Assembly (NCBI GenBank): GCA_003131685.1
Contig: PKWB01000195.1
Span: 1-34,626, forward strand
Origin: Candidatus Dormiibacterota bacterium
GTDB lineage: Bacteria > Chloroflexota > Dormibacteria > Aeolococcales > Aeolococcaceae
Length of the DNA stretch: 34,626 bases
Direction of reading: 5' to 3'
Position numbers and translations under genes: made by a program. Positions 4,313-31,735 of the stretch are shown one piece after another. How positions within the stretch are numbered: the first letter of the stretch is position 1; the number at the start of each line of letters is the position of its first letter. The notes under the pieces are model-generated. The model worked only from the letters and a program-made list of their open reading frames with translations, searched no databases and was not told where the DNA came from.

Positions 4313-4417
4313 TAGACCGTACGCGTCGGAAATCTCGCATCCGAGCCCCGATCTCCTAGCGGGACCCGGCGCCAACAATCTCCCGGAGCCCACTTGTAAA
4401 CCGATTGGCTTCTGCCG

Positions 4418-4933
4418 GTGTTTAACGTACTGGTGGATGTGACTGGCACGTCGAGGGCACCCATCGATACGGAGATGGAGGATCTCGTCCGCGGTGAGTC
4501 GCGGCGACTGTACTCGATCGCCTTCTCCATCCTGCAAGACGCGAGCGAAGCGGAGGACGCGGTGCAAGAGACCCTGATCAGCGCGTGGCGCAGATGGCCC
4601 TGGGCCGACGCCACGCGCCCGACGCCGAGTTGGCTCACGCGCGTCTGCGTCAACCAATGCCTCAATCGCCGCCGAACGAGGCTGCGCCAGATGCGCCTGG
4701 CGGAAACCGCAGCGAGTCGCGAGCCGTGGCAGGACGTGCGTCCAGCAACAGACCTCGACCTCGCTCGCGCCTACGCGCAGCTGAGCAAGCAACAGCGCGC
4801 GGCCGTTGCACTCCACTACTTCTACGGATACACGCTCGACGAGTGCGCCGAGCTGCTCGGCAATCGTCCGGGGACCGTGCGCAGTCACATTGCCCGGGCT
4901 CTGGTGACGCTTCGCCGGGCGGTGTCGGCATGA
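4418..4933 (+). CDS. ECF-type RNA polymerase sigma factor
   Basis: RRLYSIAFSILQDASEAEDAVQETLISAWRRWPW and LSKQQRAAVALHYFYGYTLDECAELLGNRPGTVRSHIARAL. Confidence 0.9.
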   Translation: MFNVLVDVTGTSRAPIDTEMEDLVRGESRRLYSIAFSILQDASEAEDAVQETLISAWRRWPWADATRPTPSWLTRVCVNQCLNRRRTRLRQMRLAETAASREPWQDVRPATDLDLARAYAQLSKQQRAAVALHYFYGYTLDECAELLGNRPGTVRSHIARALVTLRRAVSA

Positions 4934-6273
4934 TCGACTCGGACAACGAGCTCATCGAATCGCTTCGCGAGCTGGTGACCCACCAATCCGTCCCGCCGCA
5001 GGGATGGGAAGACGACCTGATCCGCAGGATCACCGAGACTTCGGTCAGCTCGTCGATTCCACTGGCGAGGGCGAGGCGCGGTCGGCCGACTCAGCAGCGT
5101 TGGCGTCCGCTGTTGGCGGAAATCGGAGCCGCACTGGCTATCGCTGCCGTCGTCGTGCTGAGCATTCAAGCGATCTTCCACCCAGGGCTCAGATCCCCCC
5201 TCAACGGACCAGTCGCCCTGACGTCGCCGGCCACGTCGCCCACCACGAGTGCAGCGAGCCCCTCGCCCACAGCGGTCGGTTTGAGCGGTTTCCAACCGGA
5301 AGCCCTGACGGCGGTCAGTGAAAGCACGTTCTGGGTGCTCGGCACCAACGGTTGCGCTGCCTCGGGCTGCGTTTCCGAGGTTATTCACACCGTCAACGGA
5401 GGGAAGTCCTTCCACCGGATTCCGGCTCCGCCCACCGATTTTCTCGCAGGGAACGTGTCGACTCCTGGCCCACCGTTGGTGAGTGACATCCGCTTCGCTG
5501 ACCTCTCCAACGGCTGGGTGTTCGGCAACACGCTGTGGGCGACCCATACGGGCGGCGCCGCGTGGCATCAGATCACCTTCGGCGGCAGCCTCCTCGGTGT
5601 CGACCAACTTGAGCCGGGAGCGAATGGGTACGTGTACGGAGTCTTCGAGATCTGCACGAATCCAACCACGGCCTCGGGCTGCGTCCATCGCCTTATGCGA
5701 TCGCGAGCCACCAGTGATACATGGACGGTGATCACGCCCCCCGGTAATCCCGTCGGGTGGCCGATGATTGGTGTCCACGGCGACACGATATGGGCGATGT
5801 ACTTCATGCGCAGCACCGGGCTCGAGATGATCTCTCACGACGATGGGGCGTTCTGGGTTCGCGGCGCCTCAGCGTGCGAGCCCGATCTTCCAGGCAGCCT
5901 GGATCCGGTCACCACCACCGTCATATGGGCCTTCTGCGCCACCGGAAACGCCGGCGGCCCGATGGTGTCGAGCAACGGTGGGTTGTCCTGGGCATCAGGC
6001 GGGGGGATCGGAGGCTTGTTCAGCAACGGCGGCACGGTAGCGGCGCTGTCGACGCAACACGCCTTTGTCGCAGATCCTGGGTCGGGGCTCTCGGTGACCG
6101 ACAACGGTGGACGGACTTATCAAGCGATCGCGGAGTTGAACGGCGCGACGTGGGTCGGCTTCACCGACTTCGAGGTCGGCTATGTGATCACCCAAAACCA
6201 GACCACCCAAGCCACAGGGCTCTGGCGCACCGCTGACGCCGGTGCCCGCTGGTCGCCGGTTTCATTCGGCTAG
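4930..6273 (+). CDS. Putative anti-sigma factor fused to extracytoplasmic Ycf48/BNR-like beta-propeller
   Basis: ATGA overlap with sigma gene; ~70 aa cytoplasmic N-terminus, TM (IGAALAIAAVVVLSIQAIF), then repeats such as DLSNGWVFGNTLWATHTGGAAW and SNGGLSW. Confidence 0.8.
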   Translation: MIDSDNELIESLRELVTHQSVPPQGWEDDLIRRITETSVSSSIPLARARRGRPTQQRWRPLLAEIGAALAIAAVVVLSIQAIFHPGLRSPLNGPVALTSPATSPTTSAASPSPTAVGLSGFQPEALTAVSESTFWVLGTNGCAASGCVSEVIHTVNGGKSFHRIPAPPTDFLAGNVSTPGPPLVSDIRFADLSNGWVFGNTLWATHTGGAAWHQITFGGSLLGVDQLEPGANGYVYGVFEICTNPTTASGCVHRLMRSRATSDTWTVITPPGNPVGWPMIGVHGDTIWAMYFMRSTGLEMISHDDGAFWVRGASACEPDLPGSLDPVTTTVIWAFCATGNAGGPMVSSNGGLSWASGGGIGGLFSNGGTVAALSTQHAFVADPGSGLSVTDNGGRTYQAIAELNGATWVGFTDFEVGYVITQNQTTQATGLWRTADAGARWSPVSFG

Positions 6274-6334
6274 CACACGAGCTGCGACACCCGCCATGGA
6301 GCGATCGCCGTGAAGCTGAGGAAGGAGCTTGACG

Positions 6335-7744
6335 ATGCCTGATCGAGGACGCCGGATAAGAGGGATCTCGCGAGTCATGGGTCTAGGTGCGGTGGTGCTG
6401 ACGTGCGTTCTCACAGCCGTCGTGGTCCTCGCCTTTCACGATGGCGCGCGCCTCGTTTCGGTCACTGGGATCAATCAGGCGGATGTGCATATCACTCGCT
6501 CTCCAGGGCTCTTGGTGTTGCCCGCACTCGACCGCACCATGACCGACCCGGCACTCGCCGCGCGCCTTGCAACCGACATCCGCAGCCTGCCGGTCGCTCC
6601 GAGCGTGTGCGCCGGGGGAGTGGATTACGGCACGACCTACTCACTTACGTTCGCATCGCCGGGGACTCCAAGCTGGACCGCGGTGATCCAGGTGTCCGGA
6701 TGCGATGAGGTGAACATCAGCAATGGTCCGGTGCGCCAAGTTCGATCTCCCGCACTCTGGTCCGATCTCGCCCAAGCATTGGATCTCACCTCGGATGAGC
6801 TCAGGCCGCTCCCTTGCGGGGACCCAGGGCTGACCAAGACCAGCCTGTGTTATCCCGAGAGTGTCCAATCGCCCGCTACGGTACCGTGGGCGCCTCTACC
6901 GCTCCAAGCGTACCTGCCAACCCCCCTCCCGAACCCATCCGCGACCCCGGCTCCTCGATGCAACTTGAACGACTTCAAGGCGCAGCCCATCGCCACGGGA
7001 GGCGCCACCGGGAATGAGGCGGTGGTCTTCGCCTTCACCAATCGCACATCACATGCGTGCCTCACGGGAGGCTATCCCCGAGTGGTGCTCAGTCAACCCG
7101 GAGAGCGCACGCTCGCGGCGACCCCGGGCGGCTTTTGGGATGAACGCAGCCCCGCGGCGGACCTCGATCCTGGTGCAACTGCTCACTTTTACGTCGGCTT
7201 CAGCGATGCATGCGACACGGGTCCACCGCCGCCGATGTATGAGCGCCTAGCAGTGACGCTGCCGGGCGGTGGCTCATTCACCACGGTATTGACTGGAGCA
7301 AAGCCTCCCAACAGTCAGATCCCCTTGGGCGTCGCCGCGCAATGCGGCGTCACGGTGACGGAACTGGCAGGCACGATCGCTCAGCCGGTGTACCCTCGCG
7401 ACCCCCTGCTCCAACTCACCGCAACCATCAGCGCGCCCAACTCAGTGATGTCGGGCTCGCTATTCACATACGTCATCACGCTTTCTAACGCCACGGCGGA
7501 GCCGATCTCACTGGATCCATGTCGCGGTTACTACCAAGAGGTGGACTCGGCGAAGAGCCAATCCTTTTCGTATGAACTGAGCTGTGGCGCCGCTCATCCA
7601 ATTCCCGCCCAAGGCAGCGAGCGTTTCGCCATAGAGATGACCGCAGCGGGTCTCACGGCAGGCGTCCACACCCTCAGCTGGCACCTCGACACCGGTGGGA
7701 CACCAGGCCCAGAGGTGTCGGCGACCTTCAGCGTGGTGTCATGA
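6335..7744 (+). CDS. Secreted/membrane protein with DUF4232-like domain, paralogous to 1602-2513 product
   Basis: Shares SPGLLVLPALDRTM...RSPALWSDLAQALDL with FPGTLALPPLDRTI...RSPQLWADLTRALGF; C-terminal CNLNDFKAQPIATGGATGNEAVVFAFTNRTSHACLTGGYPRVVL resembles DUF4232. Confidence 0.7.
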   Translation: MPDRGRRIRGISRVMGLGAVVLTCVLTAVVVLAFHDGARLVSVTGINQADVHITRSPGLLVLPALDRTMTDPALAARLATDIRSLPVAPSVCAGGVDYGTTYSLTFASPGTPSWTAVIQVSGCDEVNISNGPVRQVRSPALWSDLAQALDLTSDELRPLPCGDPGLTKTSLCYPESVQSPATVPWAPLPLQAYLPTPLPNPSATPAPRCNLNDFKAQPIATGGATGNEAVVFAFTNRTSHACLTGGYPRVVLSQPGERTLAATPGGFWDERSPAADLDPGATAHFYVGFSDACDTGPPPPMYERLAVTLPGGGSFTTVLTGAKPPNSQIPLGVAAQCGVTVTELAGTIAQPVYPRDPLLQLTATISAPNSVMSGSLFTYVITLSNATAEPISLDPCRGYYQEVDSAKSQSFSYELSCGAAHPIPAQGSERFAIEMTAAGLTAGVHTLSWHLDTGGTPGPEVSATFSVVS

Positions 7745-8418
7745 GCCAGGCATATCGAAACACATCCCAGGTGACATCTCGAGCGGTCTCCACACTCAGA
7801 GCGCGCCTTGACGATTCCTACGGTGGCGTGCTCTTGGGGGCAACCACCCTTACTGCCGCGGCGGTGATGTTCGTTGCCGTCTTCACGCCATTCGTCACCG
7901 AAGGCTGCATCAACTGCCCGTCGGACTACACGTTTCCGGCACGAACTGTGTTTCAGGGGCTCGACGGCTGGAGCATTCTGTTCGTTGTGGCCGCTCTGCT
8001 GCTCTTCAGCGCTGCCCACCTCAGAAACCGACGTCAGCGGGGCATTGCAATCGCGTGCGTGGTTTTCGCGGTCTTTGCAATCGCACTTTGCATCTTCGAG
8101 AGAGTCGACGCAGCGAGTCGCGTCATTGCTCTTGGCGGAGGGAGTCCGCCGGTTGAACTCGGTCACCCGGGCGTACATCTCGAAGGGTTTCTTCCTCCCG
8201 TTCACACCGACTTCGGTTTTTATTTGCTACTGGTGTCGTCGATTGTTGCTTTGGGTGCTGCAATCGCCGTACTCGTAACGACTCGGAGCAACCGGACACC
8301 CGATCGGACCGCGCTCGAGCCAGCCATGAAGCAGTCGGGGATCCACGTACCGCCTCCATCCGTCGCGTGCACAGCTTCGAACTCGCCGTTTCACCGACGT
8401 ACCCGGAGTTCCGTGTGA
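7741..8418 (+). CDS. Multi-pass membrane protein
   Basis: ATGA overlap with previous ORF; about four hydrophobic segments. Confidence 0.6.
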   Translation: MSQAYRNTSQVTSRAVSTLRARLDDSYGGVLLGATTLTAAAVMFVAVFTPFVTEGCINCPSDYTFPARTVFQGLDGWSILFVVAALLLFSAAHLRNRRQRGIAIACVVFAVFAIALCIFERVDAASRVIALGGGSPPVELGHPGVHLEGFLPPVHTDFGFYLLLVSSIVALGAAIAVLVTTRSNRTPDRTALEPAMKQSGIHVPPPSVACTASNSPFHRRTRSSV

Positions 8419-9680
8419 TGAAGGGACCCATCTGCTCCCTCGGCCTGGTCTTGGTAGTCCTCGCGGCAGCTGGGTGCGGCCCTCGGCTCCCCGGCTCGTT
8501 GAAACCACGAGACACCGCTACCGCGGCAGTCACACCTCCCAGTTGCCCGCAAACCGTCTACGGTAAGCCCTGCTTTACCCCGGGCCCGAGCCCCACTCCG
8601 AGCAGCGTCCCGATCATCGGTGTGACAGAGGTTGCCTTCAGCGATTCCATGCACGGGTGGGCCGTCGGTTCGTCGTGTGTCGACAGCACCCAGATCTGCA
8701 CCCTGCTTGCCGATGAGACCTCGAATGCAGGCGCGAGCTGGAGCCGACCGATCTCGCTCGGGCAATTCCCCGAGGAAACGTCGGCAGGGGTCTGGTCCCC
8801 GACGACCCTGAGCATCAGGTTCCTGGGTGCAAACCTGTGGGTCAGCGGCCCAGGTATCTACGAGAGCCATGACCGTGGGGCGACATGGAAGCGCGTGTTC
8901 AGCTCGCCCGTTCTCGCGCTGGAGCCCGCTGAACGTACCGCATGGGCAATCGCGGATTGCACAACCGCTGATCCGTCGACCTCCTGCTTCCTCCTGACGT
9001 CGCCGATCGGCTCGGACGTCTGGAGTCGCGCCGCAGTGCAGCCGCCCATCGGCGCTGCTCTGTACGCTGGTTCAGGGTGGGCGTCGATGCTCATGGAGCG
9101 TGCGCCGCATGGGGTTGCGTTTGTCGCCAGCGAAAGCCCGCAGCCGGGAAGCCAGGATTGGCTGGCAATCACCCGAAACGATGGTGGCACCTGGCACAAA
9201 ACCCAGCTGCCGTGCACGTTCGGCGTCGCCGGTCTGCGCAGTCCCGACGGCACGACCGTCTGGCTGTTATGCGGGGGTGGCGGGAGCGCGGGGAGTGGAC
9301 CCAAAGCTATCTACGTGTCGTTTGACGGAGGCACGACCTGGAAGGAGCGCGCCAACAATCTGTCCAACCCGCCCGTGGGAAGCATTTCAGCGGCCGGCTA
9401 TGCCAGCAGCCTCGCGGTGACCGGTAACGGGATCGCGCTCGTTGGCTCATTGAGAGCGGGAATCATTCGAAGCGTCGACGGCGGCCGCCTCTGGCGCGAC
9501 GCAGGGTCAAACGCGACGTGTCTTCTTGACGGCAATGGCGTTACTGAGCTCTGGCTCCTCGCCACGGGCGTGGGCTGGGCACTTGAAGAAAACGACGACG
9601 GGGGATCCCAATGCCCAATCCTCATCCGCACAACCAACGCAGGACTCACATGGAACTCGGAACGCGCTCCACTCAGCTGA
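8418..9680 (+). CDS. Ycf48/BNR-like beta-propeller lipoprotein
   Basis: Lipobox VLAAAGC; repeated DGG.TW motifs (HDRGATW, NDGGTW, FDGGTTW, VDGGRLW). Confidence 0.8.
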   Translation: MKGPICSLGLVLVVLAAAGCGPRLPGSLKPRDTATAAVTPPSCPQTVYGKPCFTPGPSPTPSSVPIIGVTEVAFSDSMHGWAVGSSCVDSTQICTLLADETSNAGASWSRPISLGQFPEETSAGVWSPTTLSIRFLGANLWVSGPGIYESHDRGATWKRVFSSPVLALEPAERTAWAIADCTTADPSTSCFLLTSPIGSDVWSRAAVQPPIGAALYAGSGWASMLMERAPHGVAFVASESPQPGSQDWLAITRNDGGTWHKTQLPCTFGVAGLRSPDGTTVWLLCGGGGSAGSGPKAIYVSFDGGTTWKERANNLSNPPVGSISAAGYASSLAVTGNGIALVGSLRAGIIRSVDGGRLWRDAGSNATCLLDGNGVTELWLLATGVGWALEENDDGGSQCPILIRTTNAGLTWNSERAPLS

Positions 9681-9717
9681 ACGACCGTCGTCGACGTGAG
9701 CTGAGCCGGAGTTGTCC

Positions 9718-10962
9718 ATGACCAATCGCGTGACGTTCGGGATGGCCGCAATCCTCGCGGCCGCCGGTCTCTCCGCGTGCGCAGCCACGAGTGCGCATCC
9801 GACCCCGAGATCAACCACCTCGCCGTCGCCAACGCATGCTCCTGCGAGCAACCCTACGCCCGCCCCCGATCCTCCGCCGCCCGGTCCCGATGTGTCCGCC
9901 GCCCAGTTCGTGGACAGCGCACACGGTTGGGCGCTCGTGGCCTCGCCCGCCCTCGCGGGTTGCTGCAGCCCGCCTATGCCACAGCGGCTCGAATGGACAG
10001 CCGATGCTGGCACGACGTGGACCGACATCACACCGCCGTCGGCTCGCGGCGCCAGCTTGATCGGCGTCGACTTTCGCACCGAAGCTGACGGCTGGGCTGT
10101 GATCGCACGTGAACCCAACCTGCCGCCTTTGATCAGCCACACTGTGGACGCAGGGCGTGTGTGGAAGACCCAGCGCTTTCCATCGGGTCAAGCCGTGTAC
10201 GGGAACTACAGCAGCGCTGCCATAGCATTCAGCGACGCATCTCACGGTTGGGTTGTTGTCGATGAGGGGTCGAACTCGAACAGCTTCTACGGGATCGGCT
10301 ACCGCACGGTGGACGGTGGCCGTAGCTGGACGGCACTGTCCGTCCCTGCCAGGGGCGCCGTCTACTTCACGACCGCGACGACCGGGTGGATTTTCGGGAG
10401 CTGGGCACCTGGGGGTGGTTTCTACGTCACACACGACGGCGGCACCTCGTGGGCGGCGTCGTCGGTGCGTCCGCCGAGTGCCTATGCAGCGGATGTGGTG
10501 AGCTACGGGCCTCCCGGCCCGGACCTCCTGATGGCGGGGGCGCCGGTTGTTGAGGCCGCATTCAGCGATCCCACCAGCGGGACGGTCGTCGCGGTTGGCT
10601 TCTACGTCTCACACGACTTTGGCAAGTCCTGGTCCTTGTCTGGTGTGTACAAGGTGCCGTCGCCAAATGGGAATGCGTTCTCCTCAGCCATCCTCAGCGA
10701 CGCGGCCTGGTACCTATCGCCTCCGGAATGGCCGCACACCACGCTGGTCACCACTGCCGACAGCGGAGCCATGTGGACCACACGCACCTCCCCGGCGCCC
10801 CAAGGAGCATCGGGGGCCGGCCTCACGTTTGGCGACGTCCATCACGGCTGGGCGCTCGTCAACTTCTCGGGGTGTCTGAAGTACAAGTCTGACTGCTTCT
10901 CGGCCACGCGCCTTTATGGGACACAGGATGGTGCCGTCAGCTGGCGAGCGCTCAATCCATGA
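9718..10962 (+). CDS. Ycf48/BNR-like beta-propeller lipoprotein
   Basis: Lipobox GLSAC; repeats WTADAGTTW, VDGGRSW, HDGGTSW, ADSGAMW. Confidence 0.8.
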   Translation: MTNRVTFGMAAILAAAGLSACAATSAHPTPRSTTSPSPTHAPASNPTPAPDPPPPGPDVSAAQFVDSAHGWALVASPALAGCCSPPMPQRLEWTADAGTTWTDITPPSARGASLIGVDFRTEADGWAVIAREPNLPPLISHTVDAGRVWKTQRFPSGQAVYGNYSSAAIAFSDASHGWVVVDEGSNSNSFYGIGYRTVDGGRSWTALSVPARGAVYFTTATTGWIFGSWAPGGGFYVTHDGGTSWAASSVRPPSAYAADVVSYGPPGPDLLMAGAPVVEAAFSDPTSGTVVAVGFYVSHDFGKSWSLSGVYKVPSPNGNAFSSAILSDAAWYLSPPEWPHTTLVTTADSGAMWTTRTSPAPQGASGAGLTFGDVHHGWALVNFSGCLKYKSDCFSATRLYGTQDGAVSWRALNP

Positions 10963-11080
10963 AACGTCTGTCGCAGTTGAACTCTCAAATCAAATTCAAC
11001 GGCGTATCGGAAGGTCGGGTTGGAACGTTTTATGGGTGCCGACTGCGCGCCCTCTGCGTCAGCCGAGCGGGAGGTTGTTC

Positions 11081-12307
11081 ATGGCCCGTAGCGTGAGATT
11101 CGGTATGGTCGCGGCACTTTCTGGCGTGTTCCTCGCGGGCTGCGCCTCCGGGAGCACGCTGCCGTCAGCGTCATCGAGGCTTTCCCCCAGCGCAGCAACA
11201 GAATCGACTCCCTCGTTGGCAGAGACAACGCCGACGCCGCCGTCAACATCAGGTGGTCCGTTCATCGTTGATCTCACTTGGGTCAGCGATCAAACTGGCT
11301 GGGCGTTGAGCGCGGTCGAGTGTGCGTCGGGCCTCTGCCCCGAACTGGCAAGCACGATCGATGGCGGAAAGACCTGGCGTCGATTGCCGAGTCCACCGGC
11401 GTTCATCCAGAGCGGCACTGTTGACTGCAGCACAGCAGCGTGCATCCCCCATGTCCGTTTTGCCAGCACGATGTTCGGCTACCTCTACGGACCCGCGCTC
11501 CTCGTGACCAGCGATGGCGGGCAGACTTGGCGGCCGGAAAAAAGCCTCCCGGTCGAAGCCCTCGAGCCGACAGAGGGCCACGTCTACCGGATCGTGTACG
11601 ACCACGGCGGGTGTCCTGGACCGTGCAACCGGACCGTGGAGGTCGCCCCGGCGGGTTCGGCGACCTGGCGGACCGTGCTGACCATCCCATTCATGGATGT
11701 GGCATCGCGTCAGGACTCAGCCCAACTGGTTACGCAGGGCAGTCAGGATGTCTACATCGCGATCTACGGCGATCCCGCCGCGGGGGGTGGGGCGCAGCAA
11801 GCGGTCCTGTTCCGCTCCCTCGACGCGGGTCGCACCTGGCGCCGGCTGGGTGATCCATGCGGAGGCAGCGGGACCGCCGTCAACGACGCCGCCAGCCTCG
11901 CGGCCTCCGCAGGCGGATTTGCCGTTGTGTTGTGCGTGCCCCGGGGCGGCAACTCCGGTCTGTTCGTTGTAACCACTGGCAACAGCGGCGCGACCTGGGG
12001 TCCGCCCCACCCTGCTCCGGGTTCCTTCTTACAGCTCATCGCCGCAGCCAGCCCGACACATTTGGCGCTCGCAACCGCCCCGATGAACGGCAACGGTCCC
12101 GTCACCTACACGCTGTACGTATCTGCGGATGGCGGAGCGCATTGGTCTTTGGCGGTCAGCGACCCGGAATACCTCGACGCAGCAGCCCCCGGGAGCGCGT
12201 TTCTTGGCTTCGAGGATTCCGTGGTCGGCCGCTGGGTGGGCTTCGAGCGCGCGATTTGGACCACGGAGGATGGCGGCGCGACCTGGACTCGGCGGCCGTT
12301 TCTCTAG
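11081..12307 (+). CDS. Ycf48/BNR-like beta-propeller lipoprotein
   Basis: MARSVRFGMVAALSGVFLAGC lipobox; IDGGKTW, SDGGQTW, LDAGRTW, ADGGAHW, EDGGATW repeats. Confidence 0.8.
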   Translation: MARSVRFGMVAALSGVFLAGCASGSTLPSASSRLSPSAATESTPSLAETTPTPPSTSGGPFIVDLTWVSDQTGWALSAVECASGLCPELASTIDGGKTWRRLPSPPAFIQSGTVDCSTAACIPHVRFASTMFGYLYGPALLVTSDGGQTWRPEKSLPVEALEPTEGHVYRIVYDHGGCPGPCNRTVEVAPAGSATWRTVLTIPFMDVASRQDSAQLVTQGSQDVYIAIYGDPAAGGGAQQAVLFRSLDAGRTWRRLGDPCGGSGTAVNDAASLAASAGGFAVVLCVPRGGNSGLFVVTTGNSGATWGPPHPAPGSFLQLIAAASPTHLALATAPMNGNGPVTYTLYVSADGGAHWSLAVSDPEYLDAAAPGSAFLGFEDSVVGRWVGFERAIWTTEDGGATWTRRPFL

Positions 12308-14550: not shown

Positions 14551-14603
14551 CGGAGCCGATGGGGAGATTCGAACTCCCGACCAACCGCTTACAAGGCGGT
14601 TGC
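14551..14603. repeat. att direct repeat (distal copy; partial tRNA-Thr 3' portion)
   Basis: cggagccgatggggagattcgaactcccgaccaaccgcttacaaggcggttgc, identical to 31683-31735; the tRNA 5' half is missing here. Confidence 0.95.
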
Positions 14604-14667: not shown

Positions 14668-15192
14668 CTATGTAGCAGTGCGGCCGCTTCGCGGGGTGCG
14701 AGAGCGCTGGGAGACGATGCGGGCGCGGCCCTGGCCGGGATTCTTCGGCAGGTAGCCTCGGTCTGCAGCAGCTTCAATCCAGCGTCCCACGGTGCTCGCC
14801 GGCGCGTCTTTGGGGGGGTTCTTATCGCGCTTGCGCGCGAGCTCGAGCCAGAGTTCCGCCACTGCGCCCCGTGGTCGGCTCGGGTGCGCCCGCGCGCCAC
14901 GGTTGTACGCAGCGGCCACCCGCTTGAGGAGCGCATCGCTGAGCCTAGAACTTCGCTCCACCGGGAGCTGCACCCCCGGCACCGCCGTGACGGCGCGGCG
15001 GAGCAGAGTAGCCAGGCTGAGCGTCTTGAGCAGGCCGCTGTCGATCGCGACAGTTCTGCTGCGCACCACCAGGGTGTGACACCGCCCTTTGGCTGTGACG
15101 GTGGCTTCGATGCTGAGTCCGCCGGCACGCTCCCCCTCGATACGGATGTCGCCGTCGTCGGTCGGCTCGACGATCATCATCCAACCCTGCAT
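14668..15192 (-). CDS. Putative phage/ICE-type DNA-binding protein
   Basis: C-terminal HTH-like VAELWLELARKRDKNPPKDAPASTVGRWIEAAADRGYLPKN, seen in actinobacterial phage/plasmid small proteins (recognition only). Confidence 0.6.
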   Translation of the reverse strand: MQGWMMIVEPTDDGDIRIEGERAGGLSIEATVTAKGRCHTLVVRSRTVAIDSGLLKTLSLATLLRRAVTAVPGVQLPVERSSRLSDALLKRVAAAYNRGARAHPSRPRGAVAELWLELARKRDKNPPKDAPASTVGRWIEAAADRGYLPKNPGQGRARIVSQRSRTPRSGRTAT

Positions 15193-15539: not shown

Positions 15540-15567
15540 CGGGTGCCCCCCGCTTTGGCTTCCTGCC

Positions 15568-15604
15568 GGTTGGCGGGGGAGCCGGAGCTCCCGCCGCGCC
15601 AACC
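15568..15604. promoter_or_regulatory. Stem-loop GGTTGGCG...CGCCAACC between the XRE and SSB-like genes
   Basis: ggttggcgggggagccggagctcccgccgcgccaacc; arms contain the same GGTTGG core as the operator at 15229. Confidence 0.5.
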
Positions 15605-15641
15605 AATAACCAGCAACGGTAATCCTAAAGGAAATCCAAGC

Positions 15642-16175
15642 ATGGCACCTAAGTTCCCCAAAGAGGGACGTCAAGCCGACCTCCAAGAGTTCACCTCGTA
15701 CCTCGTCAGCATCCAGTCGTTCGCGATCCAGCCCGAGAGCAAGTTCGGCACCTCGTTGAAGGTCGTGTACGAGATCGTCGATGATCCCGAGGCGACGGTC
15801 TGGGACTTTGTCAATTACCTGGACATCGAGGGCAATGCCAAGCTGGGCAAGAGTCCGGCCGGCGGTGTGAGCAGGTTTCGCGCCTTCTGTAACGCGGTCG
15901 GCGGCCGCTCCGAAGCTACGAAGGTCGCCTACTTCGACGACGAGACCATGGAGATCGTCTGGGCCGAAGGTGGCGAGTTAGTACTCGAGCCGGGACTGAC
16001 CCTGCGCATTCTCGGGGAGTTTCGGGAGCGGAGCGACGGCGAGGGAGCCGTGTTTCGCGTAACGAAGTACCGGCCGGCGGCCGAGCCCGAGAAGCCTCGA
16101 CGCGCAAATCCTCCGACGCCTGTCGCGTCAGAGCCGGAAAGCAACAACGTCGACCCCGACGACGTTCCTTTCTAG
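15642..16175 (+). CDS. SSB-like protein of the element
   Basis: RBS aaagga; 177 aa, OB-like length, acidic C-terminal tip NVDPDDVPF like the SSB DDIPF tail; followed by primase. Confidence 0.65.
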   Translation: MAPKFPKEGRQADLQEFTSYLVSIQSFAIQPESKFGTSLKVVYEIVDDPEATVWDFVNYLDIEGNAKLGKSPAGGVSRFRAFCNAVGGRSEATKVAYFDDETMEIVWAEGGELVLEPGLTLRILGEFRERSDGEGAVFRVTKYRPAAEPEKPRRANPPTPVASEPESNNVDPDDVPF

Positions 16176-16271: not shown

Positions 16272-18287
16272 ATGAGTGTCTCGGTTGCGGCTGCGTTGGC
16301 TCTGGCCGGTGATGGGTACAGCATCTTCCCACTTGTCCCCGGGGGAAAGCTACCGGCGAACAATGACGGGTTTCTCTCGGCTACACAGGACGAGGAGCGG
16401 ATACGCCAGTGGTGGCGGCGTCGTCCGCTCCCCAATGTCGGTGTGAGCACTGGCGTCGGCGGCCTGGTGGTGCTCGACGTTGATCACAAGGACGGGCGTG
16501 ACGGCCCGGCAAGCCTGAGACACCTGGAGGAGCGCTTTGGGGTGTTGCCGCTCACGCGGATCGTCCGCACCCCTAGCGGTGGCGAGCACATGTACTTCCT
16601 TGGCGGTGACGGCATCCGATGCAGCAGCGACACGCTGGCCGTCGGCATCGACATCCGAGGTGTCGGCGGCTATGTGGTCGGTCCCGGCAGCTCCATCGGA
16701 GACAGGGTGTACGAGCTGGAGGGATCGCCCCAGGAAGCGATGCTGCCTGACACGTGGCGAGACGCCTTGCTGCTCGCATCGCGCAACCGCGACGCCGTTC
16801 CCGACCCCGGTGAGCGCATCCCCAAGGAACAGCGCAACGACAAGTTGTTCCACGTCTATGCCCGATCTCTCAACGATCTGAGTCTCACTGAAGAGGAAAT
16901 TCGCGACTGTCTGCGGATCATCGAGCACGCCCGCTGTGAGCCCGATCCGAGCGAGACAGAAGCGGATCGCGAGAAAGAGATCGCCAAGATCGCGCGCAGT
17001 GCCGCCAGTCGGGAAGGCAGGGGGATCGTCATCCACGGCGAGGGAGATACCGCGCATATCGCTCTTATCGCGCAGCCCCCAACAGTGTGGCCAGAGATGG
17101 GCGAGCAGGCGTATCACGGGCTCGCCGGCGACGTGGTGCGCGCCATCTCGCCGCAATCAGAGGCGGATCCGGTGGCGATTCTCGTCCACCTCCTGGTGGG
17201 GTTCGGCAACCTTATCGGCCGTAACGCGCACTTCGTGGTCGAGTCCGACTGGCACTACACCAACCTCTTCACGGTGGCCGTCGGCGAGACCGCCAAAGGA
17301 CGGAAGGGGACCAGTTGGGGGCGCGTGCGTCGGCTGCTTGAGGCGGTGGACCCGCAGTGGACAGCGGACCGCGTCATGGGGGGACTCTCAAGCGGCGAAG
17401 GTCTGATTAAGGCCGTGTGCGACGACCTCGAGAAGCACAGCGCCAAAGGCGAGTCCGCAGTCGTTCCTGGCGTCAAGGATAAGCGGTTGACCGTGTATGA
17501 GGCCGAGTTCTCGTCCGTGCTCAAGCAATGCGCCCGGGAGCAGAACATTCTGTCGGCGGTCATCCGTCAGGCCTGGGACACCGGGCACCTGCACAACATG
17601 ACCATCGACGGGCGCAAGGCGACGGACGCACACGTTTCGATCATCGGGCACGTCACCAAGGCTGAGCTCCTGCGTCAGATCACCGAGACGGATGCAGCAT
17701 CGGGGTTCGGCAACCGGATCCTCTGGTACTGCGTCCGGCGCTCGCAGATGCTGCCACGTGGGGGCGCCGGCTCGGACGTATCCCAATGGGTGCAGCCGTT
17801 GCGGGCAGTCGTCGCGAACGCACGCGGCGCCGGACAGGTCGGCATGACCGAGGCGGCGTGGGAACGATGGGACTCTGTATATACGGAGCTCAGCACATCG
17901 CCACCAGGCCTGCTCGGCTCGATGATCGGCCGCGCCGAGTCACAAACCCGGCGGCTCGCGATGCTCTATGCGCTACTCGACAATGCCAAGCTCGTCGATG
18001 TCGTCCACCTGGACGCAGCGCTGGCCGTCTGGGACTACTGCGCCGACTCGGCTCGCTACATCTTCGGAAAGCGGCTTGGCGATCCCACCGCCGACAGTAT
18101 TCTGGACGCACTCCAGCGCAGCTCGCAAGGACTCACCCGCGAGCAGATCCGTAGCGATGTGCTCGGACGTCACAAATCGTCCGCAGAAGTCGATCGCGCG
18201 CTCGACGTCCTGCTCACCCAACGACTCGCGAGTGGCGAGACGGTGGCGACCGGCGGACGACCGGCGGAAGTGTGGAAAGCGACGTGA
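16272..18287 (+). CDS. Bifunctional primase/polymerase (Prim-Pol) with DUF3987 helicase-like domain
   Basis: VVLDVDHKDG and RTPSGGEHMYF Prim-Pol motifs; VAVGETAKGRKGTSW Walker-A-like DUF3987 motif. Confidence 0.9.
   Translation: MSVSVAAALALAGDGYSIFPLVPGGKLPANNDGFLSATQDEERIRQWWRRRPLPNVGVSTGVGGLVVLDVDHKDGRDGPASLRHLEERFGVLPLTRIVRTPSGGEHMYFLGGDGIRCSSDTLAVGIDIRGVGGYVVGPGSSIGDRVYELEGSPQEAMLPDTWRDALLLASRNRDAVPDPGERIPKEQRNDKLFHVYARSLNDLSLTEEEIRDCLRIIEHARCEPDPSETEADREKEIAKIARSAASREGRGIVIHGEGDTAHIALIAQPPTVWPEMGEQAYHGLAGDVVRAISPQSEADPVAILVHLLVGFGNLIGRNAHFVVESDWHYTNLFTVAVGETAKGRKGTSWGRVRRLLEAVDPQWTADRVMGGLSSGEGLIKAVCDDLEKHSAKGESAVVPGVKDKRLTVYEAEFSSVLKQCAREQNILSAVIRQAWDTGHLHNMTIDGRKATDAHVSIIGHVTKAELLRQITETDAASGFGNRILWYCVRRSQMLPRGGAGSDVSQWVQPLRAVVANARGAGQVGMTEAAWERWDSVYTELSTSPPGLLGSMIGRAESQTRRLAMLYALLDNAKLVDVVHLDAALAVWDYCADSARYIFGKRLGDPTADSILDALQRSSQGLTREQIRSDVLGRHKSSAEVDRALDVLLTQRLASGETVATGGRPAEVWKAT
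17049..17074. repeat. Copy of the origin-like repeat pair inside the primase gene
   Basis: accgcgcatatcgctcttatcgcgca, 25/26 identical to 18515-18540. Confidence 0.7.
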
Positions 18288-18697
18288 GCGACCACGCCGA
18301 CTCTGGTAGAGAGCGCGCGAAAAGAGCGGAATGCGCGGTAAGTGCCGCCTCTGATCTCGAAGAGGGGCAACGCGGATGCGCGAAAAGTGCGCGCCCCCTG
18401 CGCGATATCTACAAGAATGTCGATACGAACCTACACGACGCTGTAGATACCGCGCACCGGACGGCACTTATCGCGCACCCCGTTGCGGACGAAATCGATC
18501 TCAAAACAGGACTTACCGCGCATAACGCTCTTATCGCGCACGTCATAGGCACGTTCCCAGGGTCACGGGTGACGCGCCGGCGCACGCCGGAAGGGTTCAA
18601 GCACTTCTGGGACGAGCTCACCAGCCGTTCCGACGCTCACCGGCGAGGCGAGACGATTGGAGCCGCACGGCTCGAGCAACTGCAGCGCCGGCGATGA
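18284..18697 (+). CDS. Hypothetical protein hosting an origin-like repeat array
   Basis: GTGA overlap with primase stop and ATGA overlap with next gene; no recognised domain. Confidence 0.55.
   Translation: MSDHADSGRERAKRAECAVSAASDLEEGQRGCAKSARPLRDIYKNVDTNLHDAVDTAHRTALIAHPVADEIDLKTGLTAHNALIAHVIGTFPGSRVTRRRTPEGFKHFWDELTSRSDAHRRGETIGAARLEQLQRRR
18315..18539. repeat. Eight 14-bp sites in mirror-symmetric arrangement (putative replication origin)
   Basis: Sites at 18315, 18333, 18378, 18400 (one orientation) and 18442, 18463, 18508, 18526 (opposite). Paired start+end sums are 36854, 36854, 36854 and 36855. Confidence 0.8.
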
Positions 18698-19722
18698 CTC
18701 AGCTGCCGAGCCCGTTACTCGTTCCCGATCGGATCACGACGCTGGTGGGGCCACCTGACAATGAAATGGCTGCGCTGGTCGCTGCTCTTGCCGTGAGCTA
18801 TAAGACCGGAAGCCCACTTGTTCCCGGCTTTGTGCCGGAGGGACCGAGCGAGGTCCGCGTCTACGCATACCGGTTCACCTGGATTGATTGGAAGTGCTTG
18901 GCGGCCGACATTTGTCGTGTCGCTGGAATTGCACCTCCGGCGCTTTACCTTCGTTGCCCGGGTGACCCGCTCGTGACCCAGCTGGCTGCGCCGCGCGACC
19001 CCGACGCCTCCGTGTACTGGCACCCGTTGGTCAGCAAGGATGTCGATGCTGAGTTCGCTGCGGCGGAAGCCGCGGGTCACGAGCTTCCGCCGGTACTGAC
19101 GATCGTCTTTGACCCGGTCGGGGCAGCCGGTCTTGCAGACGGAGCGCTGCAGCAGCTCTACAGCAGCCTCGCCGGACAGACGGCGTTGATGGCCGGCCTG
19201 GAAGCTGACGAACCATGGATCGAGGACTTCGGGCCGGTCATCAGGCTGCCCAGCCTTCACGATTCAGTGCAGTGGAGGGATGTCCTTGCGCGCATCACCG
19301 GTGGCGACTCTGATGAGGCCCCACCACCAGCGGTGCCGTTACTTCGTCGACGCTCCCGACGTCCGGACCGTTCACCGGTCGATCCCGCAGTGCCGCAAGC
19401 CTTGGAGGAGGTCCGGGCGTTCTTCGTCGTCGAGGGGATCGACGCTCTCTCCGCGTTTCTCCGTGACGTCACTCCGACGAATCGCAACTCCTCCGGGATC
19501 GGGCGAGAGCGCGCGGTATCTCGGGCGGGCGGCTATGGAAAGCCGCGGTATGGCTCGAACGCGATGCGTCTCAACCGGGCACTGGCGCCGCGACGCTGTA
19601 CGGATACGGTGCCGTGTTTGACCAATGGCGCGAGGTTGATTCGAGGCTGGAGGGCCACTATCTCGAGCGAATTGCTCGCGGCGCCTTCAGCAAGGCCATC
19701 GCCGAGGCCGGGTCGCGGATGA
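18694..19722 (+). CDS. RepA/RecA-like AAA ATPase with degenerate Walker A
   Basis: ITTLVGPPDNEMAALVAALAVSYKTGSPLVPGF matches the layout of phage RepA-like ATPases but lacks GK[ST]. The 3' end may be incorrect (overlaps the next frame). Confidence 0.6.
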   Translation: MTQLPSPLLVPDRITTLVGPPDNEMAALVAALAVSYKTGSPLVPGFVPEGPSEVRVYAYRFTWIDWKCLAADICRVAGIAPPALYLRCPGDPLVTQLAAPRDPDASVYWHPLVSKDVDAEFAAAEAAGHELPPVLTIVFDPVGAAGLADGALQQLYSSLAGQTALMAGLEADEPWIEDFGPVIRLPSLHDSVQWRDVLARITGGDSDEAPPPAVPLLRRRSRRPDRSPVDPAVPQALEEVRAFFVVEGIDALSAFLRDVTPTNRNSSGIGRERAVSRAGGYGKPRYGSNAMRLNRALAPRRCTDTVPCLTNGARLIRGWRATISSELLAAPSARPSPRPGRG

Positions 19723-20057
19723 AGGTCATCTATCGCCATGGCCGAGATCCCCAGCTTGGCTTCCGTTCGCTCGGGCCACTCACCGTGCTGCAGGAGGACC
19801 ACCGCGGTGTCTATTACGAAGCCCCGCTCGCAGACGATGCCGACGTCCGGTCATTGGTGCCCGGGTTGCGGGCGGGCATCTACGGATCGTCGTTCGCCTT
19901 CCAGGTGCTCGATGAGCACCTGGTCAAGAGCCCCGGCAGCAGCGAGCACAACCCAGCCGGCTTGCCTGAGCTGACGATCCTCGATGTCCGCATCTCGGAA
20001 CTCGGGCCCACCTACCGTCCGGCCTATCCGCAAACCAGCGCGGGAATCCGCGACTGA
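19614..20057 (+). CDS. HK97-family prohead protease
   Basis: LYGYGAVFDQWREVDSRLEGHYLERIARGAFSKAI...ITILDVRISELGPTYRPAYPQTSAGIR-type layout. The open frame extends upstream to 19467 without ATG/GTG/TTG before 19614. Confidence 0.8.
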   Translation: MFDQWREVDSRLEGHYLERIARGAFSKAIAEAGSRMKVIYRHGRDPQLGFRSLGPLTVLQEDHRGVYYEAPLADDADVRSLVPGLRAGIYGSSFAFQVLDEHLVKSPGSSEHNPAGLPELTILDVRISELGPTYRPAYPQTSAGIRD

Positions 20058-22070: not shown

Positions 22071-23600
22071 GTGAAGCGCGTCATCACGGGAACGGTCGCC
22101 CTTGCCGTGGCTTTTGCTAGTTTGGCGTTCACTGCGTCGCCCACCCCTGAAGGCAAGTTGACGTTTGCCAGTACGTCGCCACCGACCGTCAGTTTGAACC
22201 CAGCGGTCGGTCCGCCGAGTTCGAAGGTGGCTGTGAGTGGGCGCCACTTCGGCGCTTACGAGGCGGTCGACGTGTACTTCGACACGACAGACGAGAAGCT
22301 GGCCACCGCGAATGGGACGGGGAGCTTCACAACGACGATTCACATTCCCGCATCCGCGACGCCGGGGACGCATTGGTTCACCGCGATTGGTCGACACTCG
22401 GGACTCGCTGCGCAAACCGTGTTCACGGTGCAGACAAACTGGGCGCAATATCGTGATGACCCGGCTCACACCGGGTTCAACGGGTTCGAGAATGTGCTGG
22501 GGCCGAGCAACGTCTCGGGACTGACTCTCGCTTGGACCGCGACCACCGGCGGTGCCATCACTTCCTCGCCGGCGGTTGTCAACGGGGTCGCCTACGTCGG
22601 CTCCAACGATGGCAAGCTCTACGCGTTCCCAACCTCGTGCAATGGCACGTGCTCGCCACTATGGACCGGGATTACCGGCGGATCGATCGGCCGCTCCTCG
22701 CCAGCGGTGGCGAACGGAGTGGTCTACATCGGCTCTGAGGACGGCAAGCTCTATGCCTTCTCCACTGCCTGCAGAGGCACCTGCCCGCCGCTTTGGACGG
22801 GCAGCATCGGAACGTCCACCGACTCCTCGCCGACGGTGGCTAACGGGGTTGTATACATTGGCTCGACCACCAAGCTGTACGCCTTCCCCGCTTCCTGCAG
22901 TGGCACCTGCTCGCCGCTATGGACGGGTGTAACAGGAGGCTACACCTGGGACCCGACCGTCGCGAACAAGCTCGTCTACGTCGGCCTCGACTACTTCGCC
23001 GCCACGTGCAAGGGCTCGTGCGCGCCGCTGGGGCACGGGAACCAGGGAACCAATTGGACCACGTCGCCAGCGGCGGCCAATGGCTTGGTCTATTACGGCT
23101 TCGATAGCGGCAACAACGGTGTGGCCGTCAAAGCTTTCCCCAAGACGTGCAGCGGTGCCTGCGCCCCTGTGTGGGTCAACTGGATCGGTGTCGAATCATA
23201 TGTCCAGGGGGCGCCAGCGGTGGCCAACGGGGTCGTGTACTTCGGCTCCACTGACGGCACTCTTTACGTCCTTTCCGCTTCCTTGGTGGAGTTGTGGGAG
23301 GGGTACACCGCCGGCTCGATCTATTCCTCCCCGGCGGTGGCTAACGGGGTGGTCTACGTCGGCTCCGATGACGACAACGTGTACGCCTTCCCCGCCTCCT
23401 GCAGCACTCCATGCTCACCGCTGTGGACCGGGCTGACCGGCGGCCCAGTCGATTCGTCGCCCGCGGTGGCTAACGGTGTCGTCTACGTCGGCTCGGGCGA
23501 CGGCAAGCTCTACGCCTACAGTCTCGGCATGGTCGCGGGGCCGGCGCGTCCGTTCCCATACGGCCTCCATCCGAACTACTCGCTGAAGGTCAGCGCGTAG
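22071..23600 (+). CDS. Secreted PQQ-repeat-like beta-propeller with N-terminal Ig/IPT-like domain
   Basis: Signal peptide; about eight repeats of SSPAVANGVVYVGSxDGKLYAFPxSCxGTCSPLWTG. Confidence 0.85.
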   Translation: MKRVITGTVALAVAFASLAFTASPTPEGKLTFASTSPPTVSLNPAVGPPSSKVAVSGRHFGAYEAVDVYFDTTDEKLATANGTGSFTTTIHIPASATPGTHWFTAIGRHSGLAAQTVFTVQTNWAQYRDDPAHTGFNGFENVLGPSNVSGLTLAWTATTGGAITSSPAVVNGVAYVGSNDGKLYAFPTSCNGTCSPLWTGITGGSIGRSSPAVANGVVYIGSEDGKLYAFSTACRGTCPPLWTGSIGTSTDSSPTVANGVVYIGSTTKLYAFPASCSGTCSPLWTGVTGGYTWDPTVANKLVYVGLDYFAATCKGSCAPLGHGNQGTNWTTSPAAANGLVYYGFDSGNNGVAVKAFPKTCSGACAPVWVNWIGVESYVQGAPAVANGVVYFGSTDGTLYVLSASLVELWEGYTAGSIYSSPAVANGVVYVGSDDDNVYAFPASCSTPCSPLWTGLTGGPVDSSPAVANGVVYVGSGDGKLYAYSLGMVAGPARPFPYGLHPNYSLKVSA

Positions 23601-23661
23601 GTCACACAGCGTCGGGACGTCGCCATAAGCACACACGCGAACTGCGACGGATGCTGCGGCG

Positions 23662-24015
23662 ATGCCACACACCGCCCCGACGTCTGCTGCCGTCTACGCT
23701 CGTATCTCCCACGACCCCTCAGGCGAGCCGTTAGGTGTGCAACGCCAGGAAGCCGATTGCCTTGAGGAGGCGAAGCGGCGCGGTTGGAGCGTTGCTCAGG
23801 TATATGACGAGGACAATCTCAGCGCGTTCAACACCAAGACGCCGAGCCCCGAGTACCAGCGACGTGTGAGCGACATTGAACTCGGTCGGCGCGATGGAGT
23901 GATGATCTGGCGACTGGACGGGCTGCATCGCCAGCCGCGCGAGCTCGAGGAGTTCATCGTCCTTTGCGACAGCGACGACGGCAGGAGAGTGCAACGCGAG
24001 GTCGGGACCGGTTAG
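23662..24015 (+). pseudogene. Truncated serine recombinase (N-terminal resolvase domain only)
   Basis: AAVYARISHDPSGEPLGVQRQEADCLEEAKRRGW...MIWRLDGLHRQPRELEEFI then stop after ~117 aa; no recombinase or zinc-ribbon domain downstream. Confidence 0.75.
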
Positions 24016-24141
24016 ACCCGTCTCTTTAGATGTACGCGTTTGTGAACTAGTACACTCGGAACAGATCGCATGGACCTAGTCCTCGAGCTTTCGAGGGCGC
24101 TCCTCACCCGGACGCGGTCGCTGAGATTGGGAGACTATGGC

Positions 24142-25254
24142 GTGCGTCGAAACCTCAGGCGCACAGCGCTGGCCGGAGCCGTTGCGGCTGCCTTCGTCGC
24201 GCTGACCCCAGGTGGCGCTGGGCAAGCTGCGTCACTTCACTGGAGCTTGGTGAACTCGCCCAAGGCCAGCAGTGGGGACAACCAACTGAACAGTGTGAGT
24301 TGCGTCGGTCTCAGCTTCTGCATGGCTGTCGGCTCTAACTACGGCACGGCCGAGCAGGCCCTCATCGAGAAGTGGGACGGGAGCAGCTGGAGCGTGGTCA
24401 GCTCGCCGAACAACAGCAGCGTGCAACTCGAAGGCGTGAGCTGCGCGAGCACGAGTTCCTGCATGGCTGTCGGCTATTACTACGCCACGGCCGACCAGGC
24501 CCTCATCGAAGAGTGGAACGGGACCAGCTGGAGCGTAGTCAGCTCGCCCAACCCCGTCGGCGGCAACTACCTGACCGGCGTGAGCTGCGTCAGCGGCAGC
24601 TTCTGCGTAGCTGTCGGCTTCTACGCCAACTCCGAACTAACTCTCATCGAAGAGTGGAACGGGACCACCTGGAGATTAGTGAATTCGCCTAACCAAAGCG
24701 GTAGCGTGTTCGACTTCCTCGAAGCAGTGAGCTGCACTAGCGCCAGTTTCTGCATGGCGGTCGGCGACTACTCCAACGGTTCAGATACGAACGGACAAGC
24801 CCTCATTGAGAAGTGGAACGGCCTTACGTGGCTGCTGAGTCCACCCAACATCAGCAGCACTCATTCCAACTACCTCGGTGGCGTGAGTTGCGTCAGCAAG
24901 AGTTTCTGCCTCGCCACCGGCTACTTCTTCAACATCAATCAGCCTCTCACCGAGAAGTGGAATGGGAGCGGTTGGCGCACGTTGAGTTCGCCCTTCAGCC
25001 AGTTCACCGGGGTGAGCTGCGTCAGCAGCAGCTTCTGCATGGCCGTCGGCTCTACCTACGCCACGAATTTCCAGACTCGCATCGAGAAGTGGAATGGGAG
25101 CAGCTGGAGCATCGTGAGCTCGCCCAACACTAGCGCCACTCAGGACAACCAGCTCAACGGCGTCTGGTGTGCGAGCACGAGCTTTTGTATTGCCGCCGGC
25201 AGCTACTTCAACGGTGCGAATAACCAGACGCTCATCGAGAAGTGGGCCGCCTAG
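24142..25254 (+). CDS. Secreted seven-repeat protein, probable beta-propeller
   Basis: Seven repeats of GVSCxSxSFCMAVGxY...ALIEKWNGSSWSVVSSPN after a signal peptide. Confidence 0.8.
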   Translation: MRRNLRRTALAGAVAAAFVALTPGGAGQAASLHWSLVNSPKASSGDNQLNSVSCVGLSFCMAVGSNYGTAEQALIEKWDGSSWSVVSSPNNSSVQLEGVSCASTSSCMAVGYYYATADQALIEEWNGTSWSVVSSPNPVGGNYLTGVSCVSGSFCVAVGFYANSELTLIEEWNGTTWRLVNSPNQSGSVFDFLEAVSCTSASFCMAVGDYSNGSDTNGQALIEKWNGLTWLLSPPNISSTHSNYLGGVSCVSKSFCLATGYFFNINQPLTEKWNGSGWRTLSSPFSQFTGVSCVSSSFCMAVGSTYATNFQTRIEKWNGSSWSIVSSPNTSATQDNQLNGVWCASTSFCIAAGSYFNGANNQTLIEKWAA

Positions 25255-27805: not shown

Positions 27806-28075
27806 CTACTCAAACGACTCGCCCAGGTTCTCTCTCAGCTCCGCAAGGGCGTCCTCGGCGGCGTCGTTGATGCTCCCGGCCGTCCGTGCCCGCTCGAGGA
27901 CGCCCGCGAATTCCTCGCCGGTGAGCCCCACATAGGCAGTGAGCGCAAGCGTCACCGCGTAGAGCGCTCGCGAATACTTGGGATTGAGAAGCGCGTCCTG
28001 CTGCTCGGCGAGTAATCCGTCACGGGTGGCCTGACGCTCCTCAAGCCGCTTGCGAATGTCGATAACCCTATCCAT
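27806..28075 (-). CDS. Small hypothetical protein coupled to the recombinase gene
   Basis: MDRVIDIRKRLEERQATRDGLLAEQQDALLNPKYSRALYAVTLALTAYVGL...; start overlaps the recombinase 3' end by 8 nt. Confidence 0.55.
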   Translation of the reverse strand: MDRVIDIRKRLEERQATRDGLLAEQQDALLNPKYSRALYAVTLALTAYVGLTGEEFAGVLERARTAGSINDAAEDALAELRENLGESFE

Positions 28076-29119
28076 CGACGCGCGCCCCGACGTCACGCAG
28101 GTAGTCACCGAGACGGCGATACGCCTCCCGCTTGCGGCGGTCGGTGATCTCCGTGTAGGTCGTCATGGTCGACAGCGTCGCGTGGCCGAGCACCTCCTGG
28201 ACGAGGCGCACATCGCCATCGGTGGCCTCGAGCAGCGTGGTCGCGGCGGTGTGCCTGAGCACGTGGGGGCTGTGCAAGGCGCTGAGCAGCCGGAAGGCCT
28301 CCGGATCGCCGCTCAGCCGCTCCCGTAGCGCCGTGAAGGCTCGCCTGGCGCCGTCAGTGCTGAGGCGGTTGCCGGGTCGCGCCTTGCCGCGGTACATGTC
28401 CTTGCGGGCGACGCTGATGAACAGCGCCGGCGAGGGATCTGGACCGCGTGCCTGCAGGTAGTCCTGCACCGCTGCCAGCGCTCCGACGGTGCAGTAGACG
28501 CTCCGGTACTTGCCACCCTTGCCGAGCACGCGGAACTGGCTGAGCCGGAAGTCGGCGCGGTCGAGCGAGCACGCCTCAGCGATCCGGCAACCGGTGCTCA
28601 GCAGGAAGGCGATCAGGGCGCGATCACGAAGGTCGCGGAGGTTGCCGGTGGGCAGCACCGCGAGGAGCTTGGGCACGTCCTCGGTCTGCACCGGATGGAC
28701 GTCGGTCATCACGAAGCGCGGGATGGTGATCATCCGGCTGAGATCCTTGTCGGTCCAGCCCTCGTCGCAGCTGAAGCGCAGGAACGAGCGCAGGGCGACC
28801 AGGGCGCGGGCCCGGGTCCGCGGATGGGGGAGCACATCGGCGAGCTCCACCTGGTAGTGGCGGAGGACTGTCCTATCGAGTCCCTCGAGGATGTCCGGGC
28901 TCCGTATGTCGACCTGTGTCGACAGGAACGCCGCGAACTTCGCAAGGTCCTGGCGGTAGGTGCGAACCGTGGTCTGCGGCCGGTTGCGTACGACCGTCAG
29001 CCATTCGAGATATTCCTCGACCTGACGTGGGAGGGGATCACGTGGGCCCGGAATGAGATCGGCCCAGGGGGGTTGATGGGGGTGTGATGACCCCATCACG
29101 TCGCGTATCTTTGCCATGT
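28068..29119 (-). CDS. Tyrosine recombinase (XerC/D-like), second copy
   Basis: FLLSTGCRIAEACSLDRADF...HSPHVLRHTAATTLLEATDGDVRLVQEVLGHATLSTMTTYTEI. Confidence 0.9.
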
Positions 29120-29196
29120 CGCTCCTGGTGAATGCAGGGGTGGCCACGGGGCCGGCTGTTCAAGCAGCGCGGCCCTACTTCGTGGAGATTACATCT

Positions 29197-31682: not shown

Positions 31683-31735
31683 CGGAGCCGATGGGGAGAT
31701 TCGAACTCCCGACCAACCGCTTACAAGGCGGTTGC
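31683..31735. repeat. att direct repeat (tRNA-proximal copy)
   Basis: Identical to 14551-14603. Confidence 0.95.

Follow-up and report, generated by a model that had tools for sequence, protein, structure and literature searches.

A mirrored array of 9-bp iterons behind a Prim-Pol/DUF3987 helicase gene is very probably the replication origin of a mobile element, and one helicase residue predicts an origin base among relatives

In a draft genome of Candidatus Dormiibacterota, eight short sites, four in each orientation, are arranged around a common centre, which raises the question of whether they form the replication origin of a mobile element and, if so, which protein recognises them. The window, by which we mean the whole stretch of DNA analysed here (34,626 nucleotides), is part of a 3.8-Mb draft genome and contains an integrated mobile element of 17.1 kb. 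The element is bounded by two identical 53-bp attachment repeats (no strand assigned), the left one with tRNA-Thr sequence (14551–14603) and the right one in the intact tRNA-Thr gene (31683–31735). Near its right end it encodes a tyrosine integrase (28068–29147, minus strand), which was identified by family search; an integrase combined with direct repeats at a tRNA fits an integrative element or a prophage-derived island. Phage-like genes among those scanned in the element, which do not include every ORF, are limited to a head maturation protease and an HNH nuclease. The protease gene (Peptidase_S78, 19614–20057) lies near the nuclease gene and is the sole phage structural trace among them; the element could be a satellite or a prophage in decay. 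No FtsK/SpoIIIE-type Tra protein, as expected of an actinobacterial ICE (AICE), was seen among the scanned genes. The region 22071–25254 of the element encodes two internally repetitive secreted proteins (22071–23600 and 24070–25254) that are possibly cargo. Secreted repeat-bearing proteins, several with 'DGGxxW'-type repeats, are found in the host flank at 3209–12307.

When re-examining the window, we found all eight sites of the preliminary description at the coordinates and in the orientations reported there. These had been described as 14-bp sites; the positions stand, whereas the unit size does not, as the comparison with relatives revealed a true repeat unit of 9 bp, GCGCGATAA, and each 14-bp site comprises this unit plus part of the next. 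The left half of the array (18315–18413, plus strand) consists of five such iterons: GCGCGAAAA at 18315, the degenerate GAGCGGAAT at 18324, GCGCGGTAA at 18333, GCGCGAAAA at 18378 and GCGCGATAT at 18400. The right half (18442–18539) is its mirror image, with five units read on the minus strand: GCGCGGTAT (18447–18455), GCGCGATAA (18468–18476), GCGCGGTAA (18513–18521), the degenerate GAGCGTTAT (18522–18530) and GCGCGATAA (18531–18539). With the degenerate middle units, the outer arms become triplets in which two full units surround a degenerate one (18315, 18324 and 18333; mirrored at 18513–18539). A repeat search of the window recovered the arms 18315–18343 and 18511–18539 (29 nt) with 90% complementarity. 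The centre of symmetry (18414–18441, no strand) is 28 bp long with 50% A+T, in an element of 64% G+C, and we infer that it is a candidate opening site. Its A+T richness is only moderate, which counts against the reading as an origin.

The symmetry of the array was compared to two sets of 1000 codon-preserving shuffles. We observed 63 inverted 12-mer pairs in the array region, compared to a mean of 6–7 and a maximum of 26–32 in the shuffles, and 34 pairs on one common mirror centre, compared to a maximum of 17–18. Nowhere else in the window are 34 pairs per mirror centre attained. It had been proposed that equally symmetric codon-preserving shuffles would refute the array; in both null models, inverted-repeat content and common mirror centre were equalled in 0 of 1000.

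The array starts 28 bp past the stop of the helicase gene (18287) and, as previously noted, lies wholly inside a coding frame (18272–18697, plus strand). This small ORF is probably a real gene: over 41 residues, its C-terminal part shares 39% identity with a homologous ORF that occupies the corresponding place in L026, the closest relative. A small gene 5' of the primase-helicase gene (15543–16175, plus strand) is likewise found upstream of the primase-helicase in L026. The array-bearing stretch is a non-conserved insert of the ORF and has no counterpart in the L026 protein. In L026, the final codons of the preceding gene contain a mirrored array with different letters (CGTAAC three times, followed by GTTACG three times). 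The array thus stays close to the junction of the genes as the frames around it change. The preliminary description would have been refuted by relatives that conserve the peptide and not the sites or their spacing; L026 presents the reverse, a lack of peptide conservation together with a mirrored array that occupies the same place with a different sequence. Iterons inside a coding region are also known from lambda ori, which lies in the O gene.

Copies of the unit occur beyond the range reported earlier. A secondary half-array of three units, GCGCGATAA GAGCGATAT GCGCGGTAT, is present at 17047–17073 (minus strand) in the linker between Prim-Pol and helicase, inside the helicase gene; it has one orientation only and is identical to 18514–18540 at 26 of 27 positions. 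Furthermore, a single strong site lies close to the left end of the element (14817–14830, minus strand). Since the linker half-array shows that the sites are found elsewhere too, an additional regulatory role is possible.

The gene that ends just ahead of the array (16272–18287, plus strand) encodes the proposed initiator, with a Prim-Pol domain (residues 8–152), a DUF3987 helicase whose predicted fold is MCM-like, and a C-terminal winged helix (approximately residues 605–671; AlphaFold model, mean pLDDT 91). Pfam detected only Prim-Pol and DUF3987 in this protein, and neither DUF927 nor D5/Primase_Cterm, the families of SaPI Rep, was among its Pfam matches. As a sequence search for solved structures returned none relevant to the helicase, folds were compared instead. 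The best 50 Foldseek matches of the predicted model were all MCM helicases, with E-values down to 3.5e-9, a TM-score of about 0.5 by query length and a sequence identity of only 10–15%. The predicted helicase with its winged helix thus finds its best structural matches in MCM replicative helicases, and an AAA+ MCM core followed by a winged helix is present, on a predicted model only. In one relative there is, in addition, a Pfam match to MCM_lid. MCM is loaded in the form of head-to-head double hexamers; to our knowledge, its origin is not selected by its own winged helix. The product of the gene at 18694 had been called RepA-like and suggested as a second candidate binder, for which the family search gave no support.

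If the array is an origin, comparable arrays should accompany related helicases. Relatives were gathered with an alignment of seven helicase halves, which yielded 80 genomic loci spread over many phyla and a further 41 on viral contigs. A search for the exact site sequence of the window gave almost no matches in these relatives because the letters differ among them, and we thus compared position and layout. In 119 relatives, the density of inverted repeats was measured against dinucleotide shuffles over a 5-kb stretch. Dense inverted repeats were confined to roughly −100 to +200 bp of the helicase stop, where the mean excess in three 100-bp bins was 6.6, 13.9 and 9.3 pairs per counting window; elsewhere it was mostly 0–1. 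The best counting window lay at −200 to +300 of the helicase stop in 88 of the 119 loci, a range that holds 11.5% of windows by expectation. For loci gathered later and held out (3-kb stretch), this was the case in 45 of 73, and in 33 of 39 of those with strong repeats. Short repeats directly 3' of the helicase gene are thus present in the window, and their position is repeated in the relatives. A small second rise of inverted repeats near −1.4 kb in the 119 relatives is close to the place of the linker sites in the window, and two loci (L125 and L211) have site pairs near −1.25 and −1.3 kb with an orientation and distance like those of 17047–17073. In one locus (L123), the unit forms another complete mirrored array (>>><<<), approximately 3.8 kb upstream of the helicase stop.

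Where the units are readable, they have the form RCGNNNNAA(R) and are 9-bp-phased and mirrored (e.g. GCGAAATAAG, GCGCGGAAAG, ACGACCGAAA and GCGCAATAAG). The script that set the register favours CG...AA, so these letters of the consensus are to some extent imposed; base 1 was kept free in the later test. Gaps between units of the same orientation measured 9 bp 130 times and 18 bp 39 times (169 together). Exactly one switch of orientation was observed in 39 of the 51 arrays with at least five units, compared to 8.4 expected at random. The mirrored layout, which had been considered unusual, is indeed so for plasmid iterons, whereas among the larger arrays of this helicase family it is the rule. 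An automatic rule found a readable array in only 79 of 190 non-redundant relatives.

To which protein do these letters respond? When comparing 499 protein columns to the bases of the unit, we find that residue 634, in the winged helix, is the best predictor of base 1 (z 20.4, the next column 7.6). For base 5, residue 628 ranks first, and for base 4, residues 637, 630 and 627 are within the top five. At residue 634, His accompanies GCG (base 1 G) and Asn accompanies ACG (base 1 A). The discovery set contains 39 H/G and 10 N/A loci without exception among His and Asn; locus L042 was left out of this count as mis-registered. In the later test, which covered 190 non-redundant loci and set the register blind to the protein, we counted 48 H/G, 24 N/A and one H/A. 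The exception is L042, for which the script probably picked a wrong register, and it was left uncorrected in the counts. Outside the discovery set, all 22 loci agree (10 H/G and 12 N/A; Fisher p 1.5e-6), where the Asn of one of the 12 (L204) was assigned by eye after a misaligned gap. Loci known before the survey also fit, namely L027, L029 and L032 (Asn, ACGACC) and L028 (His, GCGCAA), as does Bradyrhizobium sp. BTAi1, with RDVLGKH in the winged helix and GCGACAAAAG...CTTTGGTCGC repeats after the helicase. On the best tree, which was built from the helicase body with the winged helix excluded, 17 changes were counted in both traits. Of the independent pairs, 17 lie on this tree, but well-supported branches carry only five, with a mean agreement of 4.7 of 5 (sign test p 0.06). 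Iteron sites overlap winged-helix codons in only 1 of 438.

Contacts of Asn with adenine and of His with guanine agree with common protein-DNA contacts, and in the window the proposed specificity residues are 628 and His634. Recognition of the iterons by the winged helix of the helicase itself is strongly supported by this covariation and by nothing biochemical. Accordingly worded, the earlier proposal that an element-encoded initiator binds the array remains the best-supported reading, with the product of 16272–18287 as the putative binder on the strength of winged-helix/iteron covariation across phyla. The rules for residue 628 and for bases 4–5 appear statistically weaker, and we claim no full code. 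Judged from sequence comparison alone, the helicase gene is followed in many bacterial phyla by the same arrangement with changed letters, with one residue predicting a letter of the probable origin. We consider it likely that these loci form a cross-phylum class of mobile replicons in which the MCM-like DUF3987 helicase is its own origin-recognition protein, His or Asn at residue 634 sets G or A at base 1, and neighbouring residues influence the next bases.

The draft genome of the window has a second DUF3987 helicase (L031, contig C151), with Asn at the recognition residue. Its 3' region, which is cut by the contig end, contains ACGCGGAAACGATCTAAA on the reverse strand, which fits this Asn, and 15-nt repeats are present in the linker ahead of its helicase domain. 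No obvious mirrored array was seen at the 3' end of distant, low-identity DUF3987 proteins of lytic phages and plasmids, such as those of Thermobifida phage P318, Streptomyces phages Ibantik and Ponzi, and Nonomuraea. Among DUF3631-type helicases (RepAM family), two loci have mirrored TGTAACGC-type arrays (GCGTAAC/GTTACGC type) at the 3' end (L026:3363-3434 and L319:4036-4187), which result in odd peptide ends such as VTSVTNVT...VTEVTDVT. Three other loci of this family are without a clear mirrored array and one (L323) has a single inverted repeat; mirrored arrays in this family are a lead only. Operons of Prim-Pol with AAA_25 (RepA-like) have mirrored arrays of unrelated letters just past the helicase gene (L033:4982-5140 and L035:4633-4808), in two cases only and from related genomes.

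Satellite primase-helicases that bind their own iterons are known, as in the alpha protein and ori-crr of phage P4. The C-terminal domain of SaPI Rep recognises iterons directly downstream of its own gene, with apparent binding as two hexamers, and similar behaviour is described for Cch2 of SCCmec (PMC7581432). The element studied here shares with SaPI Rep and SCCmec Cch/Cch2 an element-encoded, here putatively self-loading helicase and short iterons 3' of its gene. In contrast to the DUF927 or D5-type proteins of SaPI and Cch, the helicase here is DUF3987 and fused to Prim-Pol, the iterons are RCGNNNNAA at 9 bp and mirrored, and the family extends over many phyla with a readable amino-acid/base code. 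Similarly, ORF904 of pRN1 combines Prim-Pol, helicase and C-terminal winged helix, with an origin just 3' of the gene that is poorly conserved in sequence and conserved in its dyad form (PMC4234260). The position of the proposed origin 3' of such a gene is thus shared with pRN1, whereas the pRN1 helicase belongs to SF3 and its origin is described as one stem-loop without 9-bp iterons. In the passages found of two further papers, DUF3987 was predicted to be a PrimPol-associated helicase of mobile genetic elements, origin recognition was suggested for the C-terminal winged helices found in related primase families (PMC5862659), and PICMI satellites were defined partly by a DUF3987 primase (PMC10803314); these passages name no origin or iterons for DUF3987.

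Based on the MCM-like fold and the precedents of SaPI Rep/Cch2 and pRN1, we read the array as an origin that loads two face-to-face hexamers. We hold with good confidence that it is the replication origin of the 17.1-kb element and is bound by the element's own Prim-Pol/DUF3987 protein as two opposed hexamers; in short, the eight mirrored sites are very probably where replication of the element starts, recognised by the tail of its primase-helicase. In the mechanism that we propose, the element would excise, and the protein would then bind the 9-bp iterons by its C-terminal winged helix, with His634 reading the G that opens GCG. By their mirrored arrangement, the two halves would set two MCM-like hexamers face to face, these would melt the centre of the array and start bidirectional replication, and the fused Prim-Pol would make the primers. 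Physical binding, hexamer loading, melting and replication are inferences, as no replication or binding experiment was performed.

Mirrored sites are often bound by regulators, and the array might be an operator through which the helicase or another regulator controls downstream genes or its own operon, without any start of replication. The sites inside the gene at 17047–17073 and the one at 14817 would suit such a role. However, the array lies 3' of the initiator gene and away from the operon start in most relatives, its putative binder is a helicase with MCM-like fold, and its layout is that of the known SaPI and pRN1 origins, so we regard an operator as improbable. Slightly less credit is due to the idea that the inverted repeats act as RNA or as a cruciform, either a terminator or a stem-loop origin as described for pRN1 (PMC4234260), with protein recognition being secondary. 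Three loci (L060, L134 and L067) have a long inverted repeat, a potential hairpin, near the helicase stop with few direct repeats and are thereby nearer to the pRN1 stem-loop. The array of the window also has dyad symmetry, but this is composed of iterons (the strand was not folded). Against this idea, the repeats of most readable loci are units phased at 9 bp that run in both orientations and keep their letters, and single letters follow single amino acids, a link for which a pure hairpin has no need. That the array lies wholly inside an open frame might suggest a mere by-product of a repetitive peptide encoded by 18272–18697. We give this hardly any weight, as codon-preserving shuffles never reproduced the array, its halves encode different peptides (ERAKRAE and TALIAH), and in L026 this stretch of peptide is absent and the array sits in another gene.

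Reading the array as an origin, we found no description of this origin class in the searched literature, although most subscription papers were outside the search. Systems of this type are known, and what appears to be new is the helicase family, the mirrored iterons of 9 bp, how widely they occur and the code that can be read from them. DUF3987 still carries the name of a domain of unknown function, and the role that we offer for it is that of an MCM-like, self-loading initiator helicase. With a one-residue code on mirrored 9-bp iterons, origins could be located and initiators matched to their origins from sequence alone, and many mobile elements in uncultured phyla would thus gain a located origin. 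The code itself would be a case of protein-DNA recognition that arose in parallel on many occasions and is open to testing by single-residue swaps. Lastly, these elements may offer a simple system for the head-to-head loading of an MCM-like ring at an origin without separate loaders.
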